Positions 1 to 17,000 of a DNA stretch of 64,000 bases are shown here, piece by piece. A program made the position numbers and the translations under genes. The notes beneath the pieces are model-generated. The model was given only the letters and a program-made list of their open reading frames with translations. It had not been told where the DNA came from and ran no database searches. The stretch spans positions 62,001-126,000 of the forward strand of contig NZ_VFQE01000002.1 in the NCBI RefSeq assembly GCF_006717095.1, given 5' to 3'. Within the stretch, counting starts at the first letter, position 1. The number at the start of each line of letters is the position of its first letter. Origin of the DNA: Blastococcus colisei (GTDB lineage Bacteria; Actinomycetota; Actinomycetes; Mycobacteriales; Geodermatophilaceae).

Positions 1-1516
1 CGACCTCGACGGACCCGTTCCCGCGCACGACCTCGATGGTGACCGTGTCACCCGGGTCGAAGGCGTCGATGGCGACGACGAGCTCCTCCGAGCTGCCGAC
101 CCGCTCGTCCTCGACGGCGATGACGACGTCCTCCTCGCGGATGCCCGCCGACGCGGCGGCGCTGCCCGGCTCGACGTTCAGCACCAGGGCGCCGTCGCGC
201 GTGCCGTCGGTCACCGAGCGCGTGTTCACCCCGAGCGAGGAGTGCACGGCCGAGCCGGTGGAGATCAGCTGCTCGGCGATGTCGCGGACGGTGTCGACCG
301 GGATCGCGAAGCCCAGCCCGATCGAGCCGCCGGCCCCGGTGGAGGCGATGGCGGTGTTGATGCCGATCAGCGCCCCGCTGGCGTCGACCAGCGCGCCGCC
401 GGAGTTACCCGGGTTGATGGGCGCGTCGGTCTGCACGGCGCTGATCACCGCGTTGGTGTCGCTGCCCTCGCCGGCCAGCCGGACGGGTCGCTCGAGCGCG
501 CTGACGATGCCGCTGGTGACGGTCCCGGCCAACCCGAGCGGCGAGCCGATCGCCACGACGGGGTCGCCGACGACGACGTCGTCGGAGCTGCCCAGGGCGG
601 CGGGCACCAGGCCGGGCTTCTCCACCTTGAGGACGGCGAGGTCGCTGGCCGGGTCGCGGCCGACGATGCGGGCCGCCGAGCCGCTGCCGTCGACGAAGAC
701 CGCCCGGATCTCCGCGCCCTCGATGCCCTCGGCGCCGGAGACGACGTGGTTGTTGGTGACGATGTAGCCGTTCGCGCCGTCGATGACGACGCCGGAGCCC
801 GTGGCGCCGGCCTGTCCGACCCGCACCTCGATGGAGACGACCGACGGCATGACCGTCTCCGCGATCTGCGACACCGAACCGGGTTCCCGGGTGATGCCGG
901 GGTCGACCTCGGAGAGCTGGGTGCCGGGCGCGAGCAGCGGCGACTCGTCGTTGGTCTTGGTCAGGTACCAGCCGATGCCGCCGCCCACCGCGCCGACGAG
1001 GAGCACGGCGAGCAGCGCCAGCACGGACAGCCGGACCGACAGGTCGCGCAGCCGCAGCTTCCTGCGGCCCTGCGGGTCGACCACGACGGGACCCGGCTGG
1101 GTCTCCTCGTCGTACACGGCCGGGGCGCCGAGGGCGACCGGGGCGTACGGGTCGCGCCAGGGATCGCTGCGGGCGTCGGACTTCCACCAGGGTCCGGTGG
1201 CGGTGCGGCGGCGGCCGAGTCGTCCACCGGGAGGTTCCTGGAGCCCGCGCTGCCCGGTGCCCTTCGGACCGAAGGCGCGCAGCAGGGCCTCGGCCGGGGG
1301 CGGCGGCACGGGTCGGGGCGGCGGCGTGGGTCGTCCGTCGGCGAAGCCGCCGACGGCGGTGGTCGGCCGGCCGAACGCCGCTTGCTGTCCGGCCGACGGC
1401 TGCGGAGCCGACACCGGCCGGGGAGCGAGCCGGTCGGGGACGTCGGCGAAGGCACCGGTCGCTCCCGGCGGCCGGGCGAAGACGGCGTCCTCGCGTGGAG
1501 CGCTGCTGTCGGCCAC
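1..1516 (-). CDS. htrA: HtrA/DegP-like membrane-anchored serine protease (3' end beyond window)
   Basis: This is an extracytoplasmic quality-control protease anchored in the membrane. Counting from the chosen GTG (1516-1514), residues 1 to about 150 are a Pro/Ala-rich cytosolic tail. One membrane helix follows (LSVLALLAVLLVGAVGG), then a trypsin-like domain with catalytic His257 (TNNHVV), Asp292 (ASDLAVLKV) and Ser372 (NPGNSGGAL). A PDZ domain begins at about 430 and runs off the left edge after roughly 505 residues. The gene lies 38 nt downstream of the anti-sigma gene and reads the same way, as in the mycobacterial sigE-rseA-htrA locus, so sigma-E-linked expression is inferred. The start codon is uncertain: no clear ribosome-binding site is visible. 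Confidence 0.9.
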   Translation of the reverse strand, partial: MADSSAPREDAVFARPPGATGAFADVPDRLAPRPVSAPQPSAGQQAAFGRPTTAVGGFADGRPTPPPRPVPPPPAEALLRAFGPKGTGQRGLQEPPGGRLGRRRTATGPWWKSDARSDPWRDPYAPVALGAPAVYDEETQPGPVVVDPQGRRKLRLRDLSVRLSVLALLAVLLVGAVGGGIGWYLTKTNDESPLLAPGTQLSEVDPGITREPGSVSQIAETVMPSVVSIEVRVGQAGATGSGVVIDGANGYIVTNNHVVSGAEGIEGAEIRAVFVDGSGSAARIVGRDPASDLAVLKVEKPGLVPAALGSSDDVVVGDPVVAIGSPLGLAGTVTSGIVSALERPVRLAGEGSDTNAVISAVQTDAPINPGNSGGALVDASGALIGINTAIASTGAGGSIGLGFAIPVDTVRDIAEQLISTGSAVHSSLGVNTRSVTDGTRDGALVLNVEPGSAAASAGIREEDVVIAVEDERVGSSEELVVAIDAFDPGDTVTIEVVRGNGSVEV

Positions 1517-1554
1517 CGGGCCGGACTCGTCGGACGGGCGGTCGCCGGAGGCGC

Positions 1555-2142
1555 TCAGGGGGTCCCGCCCGGGGCCGTGGTCGTGGCGCTGGTCCCGACC
1601 GTCACCGTGCGCACGATGGGCGGGATGATCTCGGTGTGCTGCTCGGGCGTGGACGGCCCGGCCACGGGACCGCGCGGCTCGGGGCCGGGCGCACCGCTCG
1701 CCGGGAGGGTCAGGGCGAGCGCGGTGACACCGGCGCCCAGACCGATCATCGTGCCGGCGAGCCCCCGGCGGAGCCAGCGCGCATGCCCCGAACGGTGGTC
1801 CACCTTCTCCGGCTGCAGATCGACCGACCAGGCACCGGACGTGCCGCTGACGGTGAGCCCCTCAGGTCCCGCGGTCAGGTTCCCGAGACCGTCGCCACCC
1901 GAACCGGGGACATCGGTGGTGAAGGGGATGGCGCAGAGGCGCGACATCAGGTCACCGGGCACGGCCACGTCCCGCGACCCGTGCAGCGCCTCCTTCGCCT
2001 CGCGCTGCGCCTCGACGGCCAGGCGGCACTGGAGGCACCCGGAGAGGTGGCGGGCCGCGCGGGCGGCCGGGCCGGACGGCAGTTCGCCGTCCGCCAGCGC
2101 GGCGATCGCCTCCTGCGCCAGGTGGCTCACCGGAATGCTCAT
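1555..2142 (-). CDS. rseA: Anti-sigma-E factor with HC2-type zinc finger (RseA-like)
   Basis: This 195-residue protein probably holds the sigma factor encoded just upstream inactive at the membrane. The N-terminal 50 residues form a zinc anti-sigma domain with the H-x3-C-x2-C motif (HLSGCLQC). A single membrane segment ([17 protein letters not shown]) lies near residues 140-160, and the C-terminal part is rich in Pro and Thr and would face outside. The ATG overlaps the sigma-factor stop (ATGA), so the two are translationally coupled. The protease gene follows immediately. Assignment rests on the zinc motif and the sigE-rseA-htrA order; the pair partner is inferred from position. Confidence 0.88.
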
Positions 2143-2714
2143 GCCGGCGCGCCTCCGGTCTCGAGGGCGGAACGGCCCGGGGCGAGGTGGGCCAGCGCCT
2201 GGCGCAGCTGCACGCGACCGCGGTGGATGCGGCTGCGGACGGTGCCGAGCTTGATGCCGAGGGTCGCCGCGATCTCCTCGTAGGTCAGGCCCTCGATGTC
2301 GCAGAGGACGACGGCCACGCGGAACTCCGGCGACAGCGCGTCGAGCGCCGCCTGCACCTGCGGGTCGAGGTGGGTGTCGGCGTAGACCTGCTCGGGACTG
2401 GGCGCGGTGCCGGGCAGGCGCTCGGTGTCCTCGGGCAGCGCGTCGAACCGGATGCGCTGGCGGCGACGCACCATGTCCAGGAAGAGGTTGGTGGTGATGC
2501 GGTGCAGCCAGCCCTCGAAGGTGCCCGGCGAGAAGTCGGCCAGCGAGCGGAAGACCCGGACGAACGTCTCCTGGGTCAGGTCCTCGGCGTCCTGCGGATT
2601 GCCCGAGAGCCGATAGGCCAGCCGGTAGACCCGGGCGGAGTGGTCGCGGACGACCTGCTCCCAGGTGGGGGCCACCCAGACATCTGTCTCGGGGCGGACG
2701 GCGGGCTCGGACAC
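2139..2714 (-). CDS. sigE: ECF RNA polymerase sigma factor SigE
   Basis: This is a group 4 (ECF) sigma factor of about 191 residues. Region 2 is seen as [19 protein letters not shown] followed by [17 protein letters not shown]. Region 4 carries a helix-turn-helix ([20 protein letters not shown]). The N-terminal extension to GTG 2714 has no homology that I recognise, and the short AGGG next to the GTG is a poor ribosome site, so the true start may lie some residues downstream. It heads an operon with the anti-sigma factor and the HtrA-like protease, and an O-methyltransferase is divergent, matching the Rv1220c-Rv1223 order of M. tuberculosis. The role in cell-envelope stress is taken from that family. 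Confidence 0.9.
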
Positions 2715-2933
2715 GCCCTCAGGATCGCAGACCGGGCGGTTCGGCACCTCCCCGGCGTGGGTGGGATCGGCGGTCGCGGGTCGCTTCAGGCGCACATGAT
2801 GATCAACGGACGACGGTGGTGCCGGTGTTCCCGCCCACACCGGCTCGCAGGAAACCCACAGGTCGGGGCCCGACGGCGGGTCCGCCCGACACCCCCGACC
2901 GGGCGCGCGACCCGCGGCCGACGCCCGGACCAC

Positions 2934-2939
2934 TACCCT
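2934..2939 (+). promoter_or_regulatory. Putative -10 box of a leaderless transcript (O-methyltransferase)
   Basis: The hexamer TACCCT ends 6 nt before the GTG at 2946 and no Shine-Dalgarno sequence is visible. This spacing puts the transcription start at or near the start codon, as in leaderless actinobacterial mRNAs. The same layout recurs at several genes in this window. Confidence 0.4.
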
Positions 2940-2945
2940 CGGCCG

Positions 2946-3605
2946 GTGATGAGCGCCGAGCAGCCGCCGCCGGGAGGCGGCCCCGAGGGCGCCGCCTACG
3001 CCGACCGGTTCGCCGTCGAGACCCCCGAGATGGTCGCGGCCCGCGCCCGCACTGGCCACTTGCCGGGTGCCCCGCCGGTCGGCCCCGCGGTCGGTGCGAC
3101 CCTCGCCGTGCTGGCGGCCGGCGTCGAGGCGCGTTCGGTCGTGTCGATCGGCAGCGGCGGCGGGCTCGCCGGGTTGTGGCTGCTCCGCGGGATGCGGAAG
3201 GACGGCGTCCTCACCGCCCTGGACGGCGACCCGGAGCAGCTGCGCGCCGCCCGTCAGGCGTTCGCCGACGCCGGCGTCGCAGCCAGCCGGGCGCGGTTGA
3301 TCTTCGGCACGCCGGCGGAGGTGCTCCCCCGCCTCTCCCCTGGCGCCTACGACATGGTGGTCTGCGACGGACCGCCGCGGGAGTACGCCGAGCACCTGCC
3401 GGCGCTGCTCGATCTGGTTCGCGTCGGCGGCACGCTGACCTGCCACGGCCTCCTGGCAGGTGGCCGGATCGCCGACCGCACCGCCCGGGATCCGCAGATC
3501 GTCGCCGCGCGGGAGATCGCCCGCATGGTCCGCGAGGACGAGACGCTGCTCCCGGCCGTGCTGCCCATCGGCGACGGCCTGCTCGTCGCCAGCAAGCGCG
3601 GCTGA
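2946..3605 (+). CDS. SAM-dependent O-methyltransferase (class I, Rv1220c-like)
   Basis: This 219-residue protein has the Rossmann fold of class I methyltransferases. The SAM-binding glycine motif is [15 protein letters not shown] near residue 65, followed by the acidic end of strand 2 ([11 protein letters not shown]). The motif [13 protein letters not shown] sits where O-methyltransferases of the catechol/caffeoyl-CoA type carry their metal-binding Asp. It is divergent from sigE, a neighbourhood shared with mycobacteria (Rv1220c). The substrate is unknown. The start is GTG 2946 or the adjoining ATG 2949; I prefer GTG because of the -10-like box 6 nt upstream. Confidence 0.82.
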
Positions 3606-3643
3606 CCCGGATTCCGCAGCGGCTTCCGGGGGGCGGCGCCGAA

Positions 3644-3698
3644 CGATGTCCTCCGGCAGGACATTCCGACCGGGAGAATGTCCGCCCGGAGGACATCG
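3644..3698. terminator. Long inverted repeat between convergent genes
   Basis: Arms 3644-3666 and 3676-3698 pair at 21 of 23 positions around a 9-nt loop. It lies between the stop of the methyltransferase (3605) and the stop of the convergent phosphodiesterase-like gene (3720). A bidirectional terminator is the simplest reading. There is no T-run, and the stem is longer than needed, so an operator or other palindromic element is possible. Confidence 0.6.
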
Positions 3699-3719
3699 CT
3701 GACCGGGCGCGGCTGCCGG

Positions 3720-4298
3720 TCAGCGGAACGGCGACTCCGCGACGAGCGCCCAGGGGCCACCGAGGTAGCGCCACAGTCCCAGACCGCGGGCCCGGACGGC
3801 GTACGGCACGAAGTCCGCACTCAGCCGGTCGTACAGCGCCCGGGCGACGGCAGGGTCCACCTTGTTCTGCACCGTCACGTGTGGGGAGTGCCGCTGCTGG
3901 TCCTGGCGCGTGAGCCACGGCCCCCACGTTGCCGCCAGCCGGTCGCGCAGCACCGTCAGTTCCGGGGCGTCGAGCGCGTAGGCCACGCCCCTGCCGAGGA
4001 ACCGCACGCCGGTGACGCGGACGTCGAACGGGCTCCGCTCAGCGGCGGCCCCGATGTCGGCGGACACCTCCTCCAGGCGCTCCCCCGGGAGCGCGTGGAA
4101 GAGCGTGACGTGGGCTGCCAGGTGATTGCGCTCCGGTGGGAAGTGCTCGGTTCGCAGCCAGTCGAAGAACTGCTGGGCGCCGTCGTCCAGCAGCAGCGTC
4201 ACCACGAGCGGCTGGAACGGCCCCGTCGCAGGGGCCCGCCGCGAGCTTGCGAGCGGTGGGGGGCGACGGGGTCCTCTTTCAGACGATCGCGCGGGCAC
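3720..4298 (-). CDS. 2'-5' RNA ligase / cyclic phosphodiesterase family protein
   Basis: The protein shows the two H-x-T motifs of the 2H phosphoesterase fold: HVTLFHAL around residue 63 and HVTVQNKV around residue 140, counting from GTG 4298. Members hydrolyse or form 2'-5' or cyclic phosphodiester bonds in RNA or small nucleotides; the substrate here is unknown. The chosen start overlaps the end of glgC by 20 nt. The first 30 residues are low-complexity, and the conserved fold begins at LVVTLLLDD, so GTG 4205 is an alternative start. Co-transcription with glgC is likely from the overlap. Confidence 0.75.
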
Positions 4299-5499
4299 CC
4301 TTGCCCAGGACGGTCACGCCGCCGTCGCTCACGTGGTAGCGCTCGCGGTCGGTGACCGTGTCCACCCCGATCCGGGCCCAGGGTGGCACGACGACGTTCT
4401 TGTCCAGGATCGTCCGGCGCACGTAGGCGCCCTCGCCGATGTGCACGCCGTCCATGAGCACGCTGTCCTCGACCCGCGCGCCGCGCTCGACCCGGACGCC
4501 GGGCGAGACGACCGAGTTGTGCACCGACCCGCCGCCGATGATGGCGCCGGCGCTGACCATCGACTCCTCCGCGCGGCCGCCGAGGACGAACTTCGCCGGG
4601 GGCAGTTGCGGCGGCAGGGTGTAGATGGGCCAGCGGTCGTTGTAGAGGTTGAACACCGGCGTCACCGACACGAGATCCATGTGCGCGTCGTAGTAGGCGT
4701 CGATCGTCCCGACATCGCGCCAGTAGCCGTGGTCGCGCTCGGTCGCGCCCGGCACGATGTTGGTGGAGAAGTCGTAGACCCACGCCTCTCCCGCGTCGGC
4801 GAGCATGGGCATGATCGAGCCGCCCATGTCGTGGACGGAGTTCTCGTCCTCGGCGTCGGCCCGCAGTGCCTCGAGCAGGGCGTCGGTGGTGAACACGTAG
4901 TTGCCCATGGAGGCGAAGCTCTCCTCGGGCGAGTCCGGCAGGCCGGGCGGGTCGGCGGGCTTCTCCAGGAATCCCCGCACCTTCCCGTCGGAATCGGCAT
5001 CGATGACGCCGAACTCCGTCGCCTCCCGACGCGACACCCGCAACCCGGCGATGGTGACGCCCGCGCCGGTCTGCAGGTGCTGGTCGACCATCTGCCCCGG
5101 GTCCATCCGGTACACGTGGTCGGCACCGAAGACGACGACGATCTCCGGCCGCTCGTCGTAGATCAGGTTCAGGCTCTGGAAGATCGCGTCGGCGCTGCCG
5201 GTGTACCAGCGCGGCCCGAGCCGCTGCTGGGCCGGCACCGGGGTGATGTAGTTGCCGAGCAGCTGCGACATCCGCCAGGTCTGCGTGATGTGCCGGTCCA
5301 GGCTGTGGCTCTTGTACTGGGTGAGGACGGCGATCTGCCGGATCTCGGCGTTCACCAGGTTGGAGAGGACGAAGTCGATCAGGCGGTAGTTGCCGCCGAA
5401 GGGCACGGCCGGCTTCGCGCGGTCCGCCGTCAGGGGCGAGAGCCGCTTGCCCTCGCCGCCCGCGAGGACGATGCCGAGAACCCGTGGACCGCCGCGCAT
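4279..5499 (-). CDS. glgC: Glucose-1-phosphate adenylyltransferase (ADP-glucose pyrophosphorylase)
   Basis: This enzyme makes ADP-glucose from ATP and glucose-1-phosphate, the donor for glycogen and maltose-1-phosphate synthesis. It is 406 residues, the usual length. The nucleotide-binding signature is [11 protein letters not shown] at residues 13-23, with AKPAVPFGG after it. [10 protein letters not shown] is the substrate-site motif, and the C-terminal third has the left-handed beta-helix repeats ([34 protein letters not shown]). The ATG at 5499 follows a TACCTT box by 6 nt with no ribosome site, so a leaderless mRNA is likely. It is divergent from glgM, as in M. tuberculosis Rv1213/Rv1212c. 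Confidence 0.95.
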
Positions 5500-12007: not shown

Positions 12008-12144
12008 GGGGCTCCCATCATCGTGCGCGCCCTCGCTGAGCACGGCTCCCCGGCGAAGTGCCCGTGGCCGCGGAGCCGAAACGGCTCGTGACCCGGCCGA
12101 GCGGACGGAATGGCCGGCCGGGTCCGGACGCTGCGCCTGTCGTG

Positions 12145-12486
12145 ATGGCCGGCGACGCGCTCACCCTCTTCGACGAGCCCGAGCCGCCGCATGTGCCGGT
12201 CGACGACCGGCTGCTGCGGGTGCGGCAGATCTACGCCGAACCGGCCGCCGCCTCCTCGCCGCGAGGCCGGCAGGTCATCGCCCGCTTCCCGGACGCCGAG
12301 GTCGTCGAGGTCCCCTCGCACTGGCAGATCCCCGAGCTGCACGGCAGCGCCGGCAACGTCGACCGCTGGGTGCGGGTGAAGACCGAGACCCTCGTCCTCG
12401 GGGTGAAGAAGTCGCTCTCCGCCCGGCCCAACGAGCGCTCGGCGAACTGGATCGCGCCGTCGACGGCCAACGGGTGCGCGATGGCC
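12145..12486 (+). pseudogene. Spore photoproduct lyase-like radical SAM gene, 5' fragment
   Basis: These 114 codons give the N-terminal part of an SplB-family protein: VDDRLLRVRQIYAEP, VPSHWQIPEL, VLGVKKSLSARPNERSANW, then IAPSTANGCAMA. The last cysteine is the first of the C-x3-C-x2-C iron-sulfur motif. After codon 114 the homology stops abruptly and 16 unrelated residues precede a stop at 12532-12534. The sequence continues 4 kb away at 16563 with CADCYVPRRKGYANPITVF. The gene was therefore cut inside its iron-sulfur motif by the mobile element at 12487-16560. The start is ATG 12145 (or GTG 12142). Confidence 0.88.
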
Positions 12487-12489
12487 CTT

Positions 12490-12518
12490 ACTTCCCGGAT
12501 GTGCAGGTATCCGTGTCG
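12490..12518 (+). repeat. Left attachment arm of the integrative element (attL, P' side)
   Basis: This reads ACTTCC-N5-GTGCA-N-GTAT-N-CG-N-G from 12490. The same pattern appears on the opposite strand at the right end (16558 down to 16530), giving an imperfect inverted repeat centred on the crossover once the ends are joined. Such half-site symmetry is expected of attP sites of large serine integrases. Confidence 0.65.
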
Positions 12519-12613
12519 CACCCGGTTGACCTAGCCGTCTGAACAAGTCGACCAGCTGACGAGGCAATTCAGTCGGCCCCATTTCTTGCGGCGACAAAAC
12601 CCGGGACCCCATC

Positions 12614-13075
12614 GTGAACCACCGGCCACCGCCGGAACGGCCCGAACAACGGGCACGCCGACGCCGCCGGGTTGCGCGAACACCGACGACCGATTCGACC
12701 CCGACCTGCGCAAGAGGTGAGGACCATGATCGACCTACTGACAGCGGCGACCTAACCCCGGGAGCCGCCGAGATCATCGCCGCCGTGACCCGGCTGGAAG
12801 CGGACGCAGCCCGGCGACTTCGCCTGCTCGCCTTGATCGCCGACAGGACCGTGATCGGACCCGCCGGCGACGGACTGGCCCACCTGCCGGCAGACTTGCT
12901 GGCCGAATTGCGGGAGGAGGTCTACGGATCGATCCGTCCGTCGCAACGGAGCCTAGGCAACTGGCGCGGCCCATCCGAGGCAAGCACAACACAGCAGGGC
13001 CTTCGGTCCCCCACAAGGACCCCGAAGGGGTCGTCGCGCCCGATCCTTAGTCCTGCTCAGGCCAGAGAACCTTGA
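12614..13075 (+). CDS. Doubtful small ORF in the integrative element
   Basis: The only part with convincing protein character is a helical stretch (AAEIIAAVTRLEADAARRL, HLPADLLAELREEVYGSI) around codons 50-110. The first 40 and last 40 codons look like non-coding sequence, and the 3' end runs over a hairpin that probably ends the opposing operon. No ribosome site precedes GTG 12614. If real, it might be a small DNA-binding or excision-type protein, but no family was recognised. Confidence 0.25.
   Translation: MNHRPPPERPEQRARRRRRVARTPTTDSTPTCARGEDHDRPTDSGDLTPGAAEIIAAVTRLEADAARRLRLLALIADRTVIGPAGDGLAHLPADLLAELREEVYGSIRPSQRSLGNWRGPSEASTTQQGLRSPTRTPKGSSRPILSPAQAREP
12998..13031 (-). terminator. 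Hairpin terminator after the RelA/SpoT-small protein operon
   Basis: CCTTCGG-TCC (13000-13009) can pair with GGACCCCGAAGG (13017-13028) with a small bulge and a 7-nt loop. It lies 26 nt beyond the stop of the minus-strand small gene. Confidence 0.5.
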
Positions 13076-13347
13076 CCTCGGATGAATCCTGACTTGATCG
13101 CTCGTTGGGTCAGGTCCTCGGTCGTCATGAAGTAGCGGCCGTGGGTGTTCTTGACTTCGTCAAGCGTCTCCGCCGTCACCACAACGACCTCAAGATCCTT
13201 GTCCGTTCTGGCGCGCTCTTCACGGAACCGCTCCCTGAGCGCCCTCGCACGACTGTCCGGGCCAGAGAACTCCTGCACCGCGAGCGCGCCTGAGCGTCGG
13301 TTGTAGAGGAGTAGGAAGCTCCGGGGCGGGGACGCCATGCCGAACAC
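13057..13347 (-). CDS. Small protein coupled to the RelA/SpoT-domain gene (candidate antitoxin or partner)
   Basis: A 96-residue protein starts at GTG 13347, one base after the stop of the RelA/SpoT-domain gene; ATG 13338 is an alternative. GAAGG lies 8 nt before the GTG. Visible features are an N-terminal strand (RSFLLLYNRRSGALAVQEF), a charged helix (RARALRERFREERARTDKD), a strand (LEVVVVTAETLDEVKNTH) and a C-terminal stretch (GRYFMTTEDLTQRAIKSGF). I recognise no family. Tight coupling to an alarmone synthetase on a mobile element makes an antitoxin, regulator or companion enzyme the leading guesses; none is shown by sequence alone. It ends before a hairpin at 12998-13031. Confidence 0.7.
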   Translation of the reverse strand: MFGMASPPRSFLLLYNRRSGALAVQEFSGPDSRARALRERFREERARTDKDLEVVVVTAETLDEVKNTHGRYFMTTEDLTQRAIKSGFIRGQGSLA

Positions 13348-13348
13348 C

Positions 13349-14245
13349 CTACGCACCTTCGCCTTCGGCCGAGGGCCTCTGAAGGACCTCAGCGACCCTA
13401 AGGAGTTGCCGCTCCAGTTCCTCCTTGGCCTCACGTGCGCGGAGCTCCAGGTCGGCGACCCATGCAAGGACATCGGTTCCTGGCGGTATCCCCGCATCCT
13501 CGAAGTCGACAGCTTCCAGCAGGGGTCCCAGTCGCTCTTGCTCCAAGAGCGGACGAAGGGGGGCCAACTGGTCGTCCAACTTCTCAACCTCGGCGATCAC
13601 CCCGGTCGAGAGCAGCTCGAGCCCCTCCACGATTTCGACGGTCTTGTCCGCATCGTCGTCAGCGTCATGGTCCGGCGGCTCGCCGTATCGAATTTGGCGA
13701 CCGACACTATCCGCCAATCTCTCAAACACGTCAGCCCACAGGCTCTGAAGTCGGGTGCGGAGCTGGATCTCAACTGGAATGCCGGACACGAAGGTGACTA
13801 AGTGGAGGGCCCTGTAACCCGACTGAGGACTCCTGATGCGGTCGATTAGTTTGTCCTCGACGTCGAACGAGCCGCAGAGCCCCCGTGCGAATACTCCCTG
13901 AGTCGTCAGGGTGAAGTCAGCGACGACGCGGACTCCGGCGATGTCGTGTATGTAAGGAAGCCGCAGACCTGGAGTGCGCTGCAGCTTCTGCAGGAGCGTG
14001 TCGATAGACTTCGTTCGGCCCGTTACAGCGAGCCCACCGACAGCCGCTGACCAGTCAGTGTTATCCAGGATTTCTTTAACAAATACTTGGGCCTGGTCGT
14101 AAGCGTCAAGGGTCTCCTCATACAGGTCGAGATCGCCGGACCGTTCCTCGTCACGGGCAAGACGTTCACCCAGCCGCGCTAACTGGCTTCGGCTGGCGGG
14201 CAGCTTGATCCCCGGGTGCTCCACACGACAAACCCTGCCAGGCAT
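13349..14245 (-). CDS. RelA/SpoT-domain alarmone synthetase (small, hydrolase-free; possible toxSAS)
   Basis: The 298-residue protein contains a (p)ppGpp-synthetase-type nucleotidyltransferase domain at about 45-190. Recognisable motifs are RTKSIDTLLQKL (Arg77, Lys79), IHDIAGVRVV (Asp101), SGYRALHLV (Tyr144, His148) and VEIQLRTRLQSLWADVFERL (Glu159, Gln161, Arg163). These match the ATP- and acceptor-site residues of Rel synthetases. There is no HD hydrolase domain and no TGS/ACT regulatory tail; the C-terminal 110 residues are mainly charged helices. Small synthetases of this kind act as housekeeping alarmone synthetases, as toxSAS toxins, or as phage-triggered defence proteins. The mobile location and the coupled small gene favour the latter two. 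The start is uncertain: ATG 14245 lacks a ribosome site. Confidence 0.82.
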   Translation of the reverse strand: MPGRVCRVEHPGIKLPASRSQLARLGERLARDEERSGDLDLYEETLDAYDQAQVFVKEILDNTDWSAAVGGLAVTGRTKSIDTLLQKLQRTPGLRLPYIHDIAGVRVVADFTLTTQGVFARGLCGSFDVEDKLIDRIRSPQSGYRALHLVTFVSGIPVEIQLRTRLQSLWADVFERLADSVGRQIRYGEPPDHDADDDADKTVEIVEGLELLSTGVIAEVEKLDDQLAPLRPLLEQERLGPLLEAVDFEDAGIPPGTDVLAWVADLELRAREAKEELERQLLRVAEVLQRPSAEGEGA

Positions 14246-14382
14246 GACCAAGGGGGGACGCACACGTGTCCGCCAACGGCTCTGCCCACGCCTAACTTGC
14301 TGGCAGTTCCCGTCCTGGCTGCAACCTTCCTGGCTGGCAATTCTAGATCCTTCCCTGCACATTGCTGGTCATCGTCGGCAGG

Positions 14383-14404
14383 GGCCTTCGGCTGGCCGAA
14401 GGCC
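14383..14404 (-). terminator. Perfect inverted repeat after the element's membrane-protein gene
   Basis: GGCCTTCGGC (14383-14392) and GCCGAAGGCC (14395-14404) are perfectly complementary. It lies 58 nt beyond the stop of the minus-strand membrane protein and upstream of the RelA/SpoT gene, so it would isolate the two transcripts. The rest of 14246-14461 holds the synthetase promoter region; a TAGAAT at about 14342-14347 (minus strand) is a possible -10. Confidence 0.5.
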
Positions 14405-14461
14405 GAAAGGAACAAAGTGGGCATCAGGACGTGGCGACCCCCGATGGACCAACAGCGGTCC

Positions 14462-15022
14462 CTAGTACCCGGCATAGAACGGGGTCCAGAAATCGCCGGG
14501 GGTCGTCATCTCCTTCACCGGCCGGGGTTCCTGCTCCGGTGCCTGGTCCTGCGACGGTGCCATGAGGTCCACGATGGCCATAGTCGCGATAGTTGCGATC
14601 CCTAGTGCGTAGGCCGAGCGATGCCCCGTGTACGGCGGTCGCCGTCGCCGCGACTGCGGGCGCGGTATTCGAGACCAGCTGTGCCGGGGCCGAGGAGCGG
14701 CCCGAAGAGCGGCGCTGTACACGAAGGTCGCCTTCGCCGCGTTCCAGATCCCCCAGATCCCGAGAAGGAGCGCACCCGCCACGGTGTTACGCACTACCGC
14801 GGGCCAATCGGCCGGGGTCATGGCCATGGCCCAACCGATCAGCAGCGGTGCCACAATCGCGATCACCCAAGGGTCTGTGAGCTTCTTCTTGAGCCGCGGC
14901 ACGGCGCCGGGCGACTGCTGTCGTTCCTCTAGCTCGACCGTCACGTCATAAGCCTGAGGGAGAAGGACAACGCTTGCGGTGTACCGGGCGGGTAGATATT
15001 CCGAAGTTGTGTTCGGAGTCAT
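14462..15022 (-). CDS. Small membrane protein of the integrative element
   Basis: This is a 186-residue protein of no recognised family. A polar N-terminus (residues 1-50) is followed by three hydrophobic segments: [36 protein letters not shown] and ALGIATIATMAIVDLMA. A basic Arg/Pro-rich loop (RPRHSWSRIPRPQSRRRR) lies before the last one. It sits between the integrase and the RelA/SpoT gene in the same direction, separated by 74 and 216 nt. Membrane proteins often accompany defence or toxin modules on such elements, but nothing in the sequence shows a function. Confidence 0.65.
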   Translation of the reverse strand: MTPNTTSEYLPARYTASVVLLPQAYDVTVELEERQQSPGAVPRLKKKLTDPWVIAIVAPLLIGWAMAMTPADWPAVVRNTVAGALLLGIWGIWNAAKATFVYSAALRAAPRPRHSWSRIPRPQSRRRRPPYTGHRSAYALGIATIATMAIVDLMAPSQDQAPEQEPRPVKEMTTPGDFWTPFYAGY

Positions 15023-15096
15023 ACTTTCGTGCAGGTTCCCGTTTGCCGTGCCGATGGTGGCGGCGGCGCAGTAGGCCCCGTGAAGGGGTGGGGGAC

Positions 15097-16518
15097 CTAT
15101 CGCCTGCGGATGTCCACCGTCGACGGGTCGAAGGACGACGCGCCCCGAGGCGACGGCAGCAGCACGACGGCGCACAGGGCGTCCACGACCTCCCGCTGCA
15201 CCGCCAGGTCGGCGGCCCGGAACGCCGCGGCCGGGTCCGGCGCGGCGGCCATCGTCGCCAGCCGGGAGGATCGGGCGGCGGCGGTGATCTTCCGCTCGAC
15301 GACGGCCAGCTCGGCGGTGCGCCGGGCCTTGACCGCCTTCAGCGTGGCCCCGTCGATCACCTCGTCGTCGTAGTCGCGGACAGCCCGGTCGATCTTGCCC
15401 CGGATCACGTCGGCCTCCTGCCGCAGCTCGGACACCTCGGGGGTGGCACCGGCAAGGAGGCTGGCCACGTCTGGCTGGGCGAGCCGCTCCTCGATCACGT
15501 CGGCCACGTACCGGTCCACCGGCTCGGCCGCCCGGGACAGGTGCCCGTGCTGGCGGCAGATGTAGGTGCGGACGTTGCCCTGCGTCCGGCGGCCGGTCCG
15601 CATGGTCACCGGCTGCCCGTGCTCGTCCACCTCCCCGGCGGCGTCGCATCGGCCGCAGACGAACAGTCCGGACCCCAGCCAGCGCCGGGCGGTGCCGAGT
15701 GTGTTGACTTTCCGCACCGGGTCAGTCAACAGGGCCACGGCCTTCTCATGCTCGGCGTCGGAGACGATGCGCGGCCACTCGCCCCGCACACGGAGCTCGT
15801 CGTCGGCCCCGGCGTGGTACACCCGCCAGCCCGCGTAGCGCGGCGACCGCAGCAGGTAGGCCACACCCTTCCGTGACCAGCGGTTGCCCCGGACGCTGGG
15901 GAGCCCGGCGGCGTTCATCGCCTCGGTGATCCGCACCAGCGACTCGCCCCGGAACAGGCGGTCGAAGGCGTCGCGGACGACCGCCGACTCCTCAGGGTCG
16001 ATCTTCCCGCCCGGCCGGTAGCCGAACGCCCGGCGGGAGGGGCACTCGCCCCGCTCGGCGGCCTGCACCGCCTGGCGGCGCTGCCGCTCGGCCTTCTGCT
16101 CGACCTCCAGACGGGACCACACGGCGGCCTGCCACGCGGCGGCGCGGCCCATCGCCGTGGTGAGGTCGAACATGGCGCGCACCAGCATGACCCGGGCGCC
16201 GGTGCGCTCCACGAGGTCCACCAACTCGACCATCTCGCCGAGCTGCCGGAGCAGGCGGTCCTGGGTCTGTGCGACGACGAGGACCGACCGGCCGCCGGCC
16301 TCGAGTTCGGGCAGCAACTCACCGTTGTAGCCGGGGCGCGGCTTCTTGCTGCTGGCGGAGGTGTCGTTGTCCACGATCACCCGTGCCGCGTCCGGGTTGA
16401 TGCCCTCCCGGACGAGGAGGCGGCGGCAGTCCTCGATCTGGCGGTCGATGCCGTCCGCGTTGTCCTTGCTCTGCCGGGCGTAGATAACCGCCCTGACCTG
16501 CGCGTTCCGTGTCCCCAT
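15097..16518 (-). CDS. int: Large serine recombinase (site-specific integrase)
   Basis: The 473-residue enzyme catalyses integration of the element through a covalent serine-DNA link. The resolvase domain has the nucleophile Ser17 (VIYARQSKDN) and the catalytic DRLLR motif. The recombinase domain follows (RAFGYRPGGKI, RWSRKGVAYLLRSPRYAGW). A zinc-ribbon starts with CGRC and later has YICRQHGHLSR, and a coiled-coil helix (VSELRQEADVIRGKIDRAV) precedes the C-terminus. The start codon is only 42 nt from the right chromosomal junction, as expected for int next to its att site. It looks intact, so the element may still be able to move if a directionality factor is supplied. Confidence 0.93.
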   Translation of the reverse strand: MGTRNAQVRAVIYARQSKDNADGIDRQIEDCRRLLVREGINPDAARVIVDNDTSASSKKPRPGYNGELLPELEAGGRSVLVVAQTQDRLLRQLGEMVELVDLVERTGARVMLVRAMFDLTTAMGRAAAWQAAVWSRLEVEQKAERQRRQAVQAAERGECPSRRAFGYRPGGKIDPEESAVVRDAFDRLFRGESLVRITEAMNAAGLPSVRGNRWSRKGVAYLLRSPRYAGWRVYHAGADDELRVRGEWPRIVSDAEHEKAVALLTDPVRKVNTLGTARRWLGSGLFVCGRCDAAGEVDEHGQPVTMRTGRRTQGNVRTYICRQHGHLSRAAEPVDRYVADVIEERLAQPDVASLLAGATPEVSELRQEADVIRGKIDRAVRDYDDEVIDGATLKAVKARRTAELAVVERKITAAARSSRLATMAAAPDPAAAFRAADLAVQREVVDALCAVVLLPSPRGASSFDPSTVDIRRR

Positions 16519-16529
16519 GCCGACAAGAC

Positions 16530-16558
16530 TACCTCGAATACGTGCACTTATAGGAAGT
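16530..16558 (-). repeat. Right attachment arm of the integrative element (attR, P side)
   Basis: Read on the minus strand from 16558 it gives ACTTCC-N5-GTGCA-N-GTAT-N-CG-N-G, matching the left arm at 12490. It borders the CT at 16559-16560 that is shared with the left junction (12487-12488). The integrase gene starts a few bases inside it. Confidence 0.65.
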
Positions 16559-16562
16559 CTGG

Positions 16563-17000
16563 TGTGCCGACTGCTACGTGCCGCGTCGCAAGGGGTACGC
16601 CAATCCCATCACGGTGTTCACCAACGTCGACGACTTCGTCGCGGCCGGGTACGAGGTGCACCTGAACCTCTCCCCCGTCGTCCTGCGGGACGGGTGGGAG
16701 GCGGACTGGACGGCGCTGCTGCGGCAGCTCGACGACGTGCTCTCCCCCGTTGCCAAGCGGCAGGCCGCCGCGGAGGTCATCCTGCTCACGCACAACCGCG
16801 ACCTGCACGAGGTGAACCTCGGCTGGCATCCCCGGGCCGAGGAGCTGCTCTGGCGCCCGGAGATCCAGCAGCCGAAGCGCAGCGGGAACGGCCAGGAGAA
16901 CGTCCGCTACCGGAACGACGTCAAGCGGGCCGGCGTCGCGCGGCTGCAGTTGCTGATCGCGGCCCACGCGCCGTGGCTCACCGTGCGTTACGCCTTCTGA
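16563..17000 (+). pseudogene. Spore photoproduct lyase-like radical SAM gene, 3' fragment
   Basis: The in-frame sequence resumes with CADCYVPRRKGYANPITVF, which supplies the second and third cysteines of the iron-sulfur motif begun at 12486. It ends with ENVRYRNDVKRAGVARLQLL and WLTVRYAF, the usual C-terminus of this family. The fragment is 145 codons. After TNV it jumps directly to DDFVAAGYEVHLNLSPVVL. From memory of SplB proteins (about 340 residues), 80-100 residues of the central barrel should lie between these two motifs. So this half carries a large internal in-frame deletion in addition to the insertion, and the lyase cannot be functional. Confidence 0.85.

Follow-up and report, generated by a model that had tools for sequence, protein, structure and literature searches.

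The locus considered here, from the genome of Blastococcus colisei, encodes a RelA/SpoT-type synthetase whose frame ends in TAG and, after a single intervening base, a GTG-started frame of 96 codons; it raises the question of whether these genes form an undescribed toxin or phage defense system. A preliminary description, made from a 64,000-nucleotide stretch alone (contig NZ_VFQE01000002.1, positions 62,001 to 126,000; hereafter, the window), had proposed a toxic small alarmone synthetase (toxSAS) or CapRel-like pair on a mobile element and had ranked it as the window's best candidate for an undescribed system. Both frames lie on the minus strand where that description had placed them (Table 1), and four lines of evidence (sequence, synteny, phylogeny, and predicted fold) support assigning them to toxSAS or CapRel-like pairs, specifically to the PhRel type. 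The novelty claim fared less well. By sequence homology, the pair is a new member of the PhRel:ATphRel-type toxSASs, a bipartite operon of a described family and not a new system; its published homolog from mycobacteriophage Phrann is entered in the DefenseFinder catalog as gp29-gp30 (PMC10482375; statements on published work, here and below, draw on parts of the cited papers). We refer to the two proteins, by homology, as toxin and antitoxin.

TABLE 1 Features of the PhRel:ATphRel-type locus, its element, and its target gene (positions in the window)
Feature	Positions	Strand	Remarks
Predicted toxin, PhRel-type toxSAS	13349..14245	minus	298 residues; PF04607 at residues 76-172
Predicted antitoxin, ATphRel-type pseudo-zinc-finger protein	13057..13347	minus	96 codons; motif H69-G-R-Y72-F73
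Integrated element carrying the pair	12486..16562		about 4.08 kb; homology to uninterrupted same-genus gene breaks there
Large serine integrase	15097..16518	minus	PF00239 6.4e-19; PF07508 5e-17; phrog_95 integrase 2.4e-72
Predicted protein, no family match	14462..15022	minus	between integrase and toxin; hydrophobic stretches by eye
Spore photoproduct lyase, 5' part	12058..12486	plus	split after ..CAMA
Spore photoproduct lyase, 3' part	16563..17000	plus	about 330 bp gone near 16630

The start sites of both genes look unsure, and GTG 14224 and ATG 13338 look at least as likely as those tabulated. The former yields a toxin of 291 residues and the latter an antitoxin of 93; read by eye, an AGGG precedes each at plausible spacing, the one before the antitoxin overlapping the toxin stop.

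Several lines of evidence identify the toxin. RelA_SpoT (PF04607) is its sole Pfam match (3.7e-11, above the curated cut-off), and its NCBIfam matches are RelA/SpoT-type models, all below threshold; as the preliminary description had stated, hydrolase and regulatory domains are absent from the results of these scans. The residues which that description had read as key (Arg77, Lys79, Asp101, Tyr144, and Glu159) are invariant in a 22-row alignment of homologs. The protein also matches phrog_4773 (1.8e-23) and positions 6 to 192 of the 349-position fused PADLOC family PDC-S33 (1.8e-18). Its closest phage relatives are encoded by Mycobacterium phage WST1 (36.5% identity over 74%) and by Phrann (gp29, 34.8% over 72%). 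The 110 C-terminal residues, previously regarded as unfamiliar, align with the region of CapRel that precedes its antitoxin domain. In a single-chain AlphaFold2 model (predicted local distance difference test [pLDDT] score, 90.4), residues 199 to 289 of this tail are predicted to form a helical hairpin where CapRel has that stretch; CapRel fits the toxin model better over its whole length and covers it to its end. Judged from these models, the operon looks like a CapRel cut in two.

The small protein was earlier said to match no known family, and Pfam indeed returned zero matches. Profile searches of the kind that the preliminary description had recommended recovered phrog_22117 (5.9e-15) and the C terminus of PDC-S33 (positions 264 to 336; 2.4e-6). 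With Phrann gp30 as a single query, the window protein scored 35.0 bits, versus 9.5 for the best of 5,000 shuffles; these three matches rule out an unknown family. A profile of four relatives, built without the window protein, gave 58.7 bits versus 10.7 for the best shuffle, and the equivalent test for the toxin gave 172.0 versus 7.7. In WST1 and Phrann alike, a 72-codon gene (stop included) comes after the synthetase. Because plain tblastn with the small protein at an E value of 0.01 missed Phrann gp30, and a five-row antitoxin profile found zero toxSAS chains in the PDB by sequence, it took phmmer/HMM comparison to connect the protein with gp30 and a comparison of folds to connect it with solved antitoxins. 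The single-chain AlphaFold2 model of the antitoxin (pLDDT, 87.0) has the predicted fold of a pseudo-zinc-finger domain (pZFD), and the best five entries in a fold comparison (VIA) were ATfaRel2 (three) and CapRel (two), with modest Z scores. The antitoxin profile matched CapRel-SJ46 alone weakly (10.5 bits; E value, 0.053), yet ranked it first of 2,001. With both parts once called unfamiliar settled, the small gene and the synthetase tail belong to a described defense family.

We surveyed gene neighborhoods for synthetase homologs that lack the small gene, a pattern that, if regular and outside mobile elements, the preliminary description had named as one that would refute its proposal. The survey comprised 43 distinct closer loci: 28 from a genome scan with the synthetase profile, 5 from phages or plasmids, 3 from the same family (two of them from the same genus), and 7 from the same class, after three duplicates were dropped (L036 = L078, L037 = L079, and L080 = L007, the last with identical proteins). 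All 43 carry an antitoxin-profile match on the toxin's strand, the weakest being that of L029 (2.3e-3); in 42, the antitoxin frame overlaps or trails the toxin 3' end. The remaining locus, L016 (positions 4086 to 5195), has a single frame that runs from the toxin core into the antitoxin with no stop between them; a stop does interrupt the N-terminal part of its toxin, and its motif is HSRYF. Toxin frames are broken or partial in L016, L022, L023, and L034 and short in L030. Among 32 looser viral-contig loci, the pattern does occur in part: the antitoxin lies at the toxin 3' end in 21 (6 split, one of which is Phrann, and 15 fused), the match is nonadjacent in 1, and the antitoxin-profile search found no antitoxin of the ATphRel/CapRel kind in 10. 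Toxin matches at an E value of 1e-20 or better occurred in 8 of 394 same-class genomes and antitoxin matches in 5 of 112 family genomes, the window's own included in each count; the system is therefore rare and patchy.

Phylogeny places the toxin on the PhRel side. In a 41-row tree, it joins the PhRel of Phrann and is separated from CapRel-SJ46 (support, 97/87), and a 60-row quick tree concurs (Shimodaira-Hasegawa-like approximate likelihood ratio test, 98); its exact position within the PhRel side is weakly supported. The nearest rows are from Geodermatophilaceae and other members of the class, at most 44 to 46% identical over aligned columns, and the best local identity reaches 50% over 215 residues (L078). 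For one split pair from this family, L081, the tree instead shows a grouping with CapRel-SJ46 (99/87). These results bear on whether the synthetase might be a conventional small (p)ppGpp synthetase of the RelQ/RelP/YjbM-like type acting with a small regulator in the stringent response. We regard this as extremely unlikely: the NCBIfam YjbM model, which represents this housekeeping type, scored 24.8 bits, below its cut-off of 320, an antitoxin-type partner accompanies every closer relative, CapRel accounts for the model to its end, and the toxin groups with Phrann PhRel.

The members of Phrann gp29:gp30, a PhRel:ATphRel pair, have relatives in the two ends of the CapRel fusion protein (PMC9712102), and PhRel:ATphRel is published as a tRNA-pyrophosphorylating toxSAS. 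The window pair shares with it the two-gene order, with the toxin first and the antitoxin directly behind, homology of both proteins (toxin, 32 to 35% identity; antitoxin, 34%), the catalytic residues, an antitoxin HxRYF motif, and a tail of similar length. It differs in residing on a small integrase element rather than in a prophage, in forming its own sub-branch with Geodermatophilaceae relatives, and in the size of its antitoxin (96 or 93 residues versus 71). CapRel itself, the fused protein of Salmonella phage SJ46 (PDC-S33), corresponds to the window toxin model up to residue 275 and to the small protein from residue 278, and each window protein matches one end of PDC-S33; however, the window system consists of two genes with a stop codon between the frames, and its toxin falls outside the fused clade. 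An unfused arrangement is usual for CapRel in Actinobacteria and predominates for PhRel, according to a figure legend (PMC9712102). PhRel2 of phage Lily shares the toxSAS toxin core but is very distant on the tree (branch length, 7.5), and its antitoxin, a DUF4065 neighbor, carries a DUF4065/Panacea domain. For the (pp)pApp synthetases FaRel and Tas1, a Tis1-like or small alarmone hydrolase (SAH) partner would be expected; the window partner matches pZFD-type antitoxins, in searches that were not aimed at Tis1 or SAH.

The favored reading, which we consider quite likely, is a bipartite PhRel:ATphRel-type toxSAS operon in which a tRNA-CCA pyrophosphokinase would be held by a donor-site plug supplied in trans, freed upon phage infection, and lead to abortive infection. 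It builds on the homology that links each protein to its counterpart in the known pair, kept synteny, an intact catalytic set, predicted folds, and a mobile context; by analogy with relatives, it extends to toxicity, neutralization, the tRNA target, donor-site blocking, the phage trigger, and defense. The toxin would most likely be an ATP-dependent pyrophosphokinase acting on the 3'-CCA end of uncharged tRNA, stopping translation. The antitoxin would bind in trans, its short helical H69-G-R-Y72 segment reaching between Arg77 and Arg106 into the ATP (donor) site and keeping the enzyme off. R77, R106, E159, and Q161 of the toxin correspond roughly to FaRel2 R64, R95, E145, and Q147 (numbering from PMC11782079), matched on spacing, with E-x-Q exact. 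A phage product would presumably free the toxin, and abortive infection would protect both population and element; the pair is probably used against phages. It is very unlikely that the synthetase instead makes a toxic alarmone, (pp)pApp, as FaRel and Tas1 do, and leaves tRNA unmodified: a pZFD-type antitoxin that keeps the second tyrosine is associated with blocking of the donor site in toxSASs that target tRNA, (pp)pApp makers are neutralized by Tis1-like domains (PMC11782079 for both), and CapRel is the better whole-length fit to the toxin model.

The antitoxin motif is the one detail that may be new. Relatives block the ATP site with a YxxY motif (PMC9712102 and PMC11782079), and CapRel-SJ46 has YPNYF; the window antitoxin departs from YxxY, with H69-G-R-Y72-F73 at the aligned place, and retains the second tyrosine. 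Histidine occupies the first position (HxxYF) in each of the 44 split rows, among them the window, whereas the 16 fused rows have tyrosine (14) or phenylalanine (2), as YxxY[FY] or FxxYF; the histidine, tyrosine, and phenylalanine of the motif are invariant across a 27-row alignment. This count omits near or exact copies (L010, near L009; L080 = L007; L093 = Phrann), loci with broken or partial toxin frames (L016, L022, L023, and L034), Lily PhRel2 for its other kind of antitoxin, L102 for its nonadjacent antitoxin match, and the 10 antitoxin-less viral loci; of these, L010, L016, L022, L023, L034, and L080 bear histidine too. Because split versus fused changes only once on the tree, leaving an independent-pairs test without power, no functional link of histidine or tyrosine to splitting is drawn, and the motif was rejected as a functional correlate of splitting also because ATfaRel2 is split yet has YxxY, unlike the window antitoxin. 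The strings "HXXY" and "histidine" are absent from the main text of the toxSAS papers searched, whose alignments are in figures, and we do not claim that the histidine form is unpublished. The HxxYF/YxxY contrast lends itself to a simple mutational test of the way in which the ATP site is plugged by antitoxins of split and of fused toxSASs. A bolder proposal, which we consider doubtful, is that split PhRel/CapRel antitoxins neutralize in trans through a histidine HxxYF plug, as opposed to the fused YPNYF, that histidine versus tyrosine or phenylalanine marks trans and cis switches with different release triggers, and that the window switch travels on a minimal integrase element, with related elements exchanging defense and phage cargo at a single site in the spore photoproduct lyase gene.

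The mobile context noted in the preliminary description is borne out by the serine integrase gene and by target sites that are uninterrupted in 7 of 15 other same-genus genomes searched, the other eight not having been followed at the site. Homology ends at window position 12485/12486 and restarts at 16562/16563 (six genomes by BLAST pieces and L044 by reading the segment). The intact homolog in L045 (positions 1537 to 2655) matches the spore photoproduct lyase model TIGR03886 (4.2e-190); the interruption falls inside what we take to be the radical-SAM cysteine motif of the gene, for which the Radical_SAM match is weak, and the split gene is the sole copy found in the genome. Read by eye, the two junctions show no unambiguous 2-base att core, and Rfam gave zero matches in 12400 to 16700.

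A further alternative is that the element and the pair are a stranded, decayed remnant no longer expressed. The broken host gene, with its lost sequence, and a scan that found neither a sigma-70-like promoter nor an intrinsic terminator in the element would fit, but the scan used one consensus and shuffles averaged just 0.2 hits; moreover, both pair genes and the integrase gene are open, and toxin and antitoxin retain their conserved residues, making decay quite unlikely.

The composition of the element bears on its role. GC3 (G+C content at third codon positions) is 0.69 for the synthetase (longest frame) versus 0.95 for the integrase, and G+C content dips to 0.60 at the synthetase, which fits separate acquisition; the synthetase probably joined the element at a later stage. 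This probable late addition, the scarcity of nameable cargo beyond the integrase, one uncharacterized protein, and the pair, and the occurrence of PhRel-like relatives on plasmids and in phages would agree with a role mainly in element addiction, with the same toxin-antitoxin chemistry as in the favored reading and no phage defense. We regard this as possible, if unlikely: Phrann gp29:gp30, the nearest tested relative, provides prophage defense against several phages (PMC9262239), and CapRel in its fused form senses phages (PMC9712102).

The protein encoded between integrase and toxin had zero PHROG, Pfam, or NCBIfam matches (first 182 residues) and zero tblastn matches in eight loci, five of which have a PhRel-like pair, leaving a third component unsupported by these scans. 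The frame at 12614 to 13075 had zero Pfam matches.

The lyase site is occupied elsewhere. In a genome of another genus (G034, L076), an 85% identical integrase shares the right-hand junction, and behind it come replication-initiation (6.3e-5), HNH (4.5e-12), and weakly capsid-like (0.0013) genes; neither window pair protein had a match in the 18 kb analyzed, the far element end lying outside this view. In G040 (L077), a related integrase (52%) meets the left part of the lyase gene at the identical base, and genes for a terminase small subunit and a major head protein lie close by. Phage-like elements therefore use this site repeatedly and bring varying cargo to it, which suggests a family of satellite- or prophage-like elements that exchange cargo. 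Mobile genes beside relatives as a general rule are not shown by our survey: seven mobility/phage tblastn queries matched in 2 of 38 relative loci, with an insensitive method and several short loci.

A DefenseFinder survey found gp29-gp30 confined to Actinobacteria (PMC10482375). The present set adds Geodermatophilaceae members, one on a tiny integrase element, and, beyond the surveyed Actinobacteria, homologous pairs in Chloroflexota genome bins. PhRel-like pairs in L029, L031, L032, L033, and L017 come from such bins and from one Acidobacteriaceae bin; the Acidobacteriaceae pair clusters with a Gordonia protein, so it may reflect recent transfer or a binning error. On a Pseudarthrobacter plasmid (L003, positions 1368 to 3956), where the antitoxin frame behind the PhRel-like gene lacks annotation, TIR-domain, caspase-family, and recombinase genes lie directly upstream of that gene.
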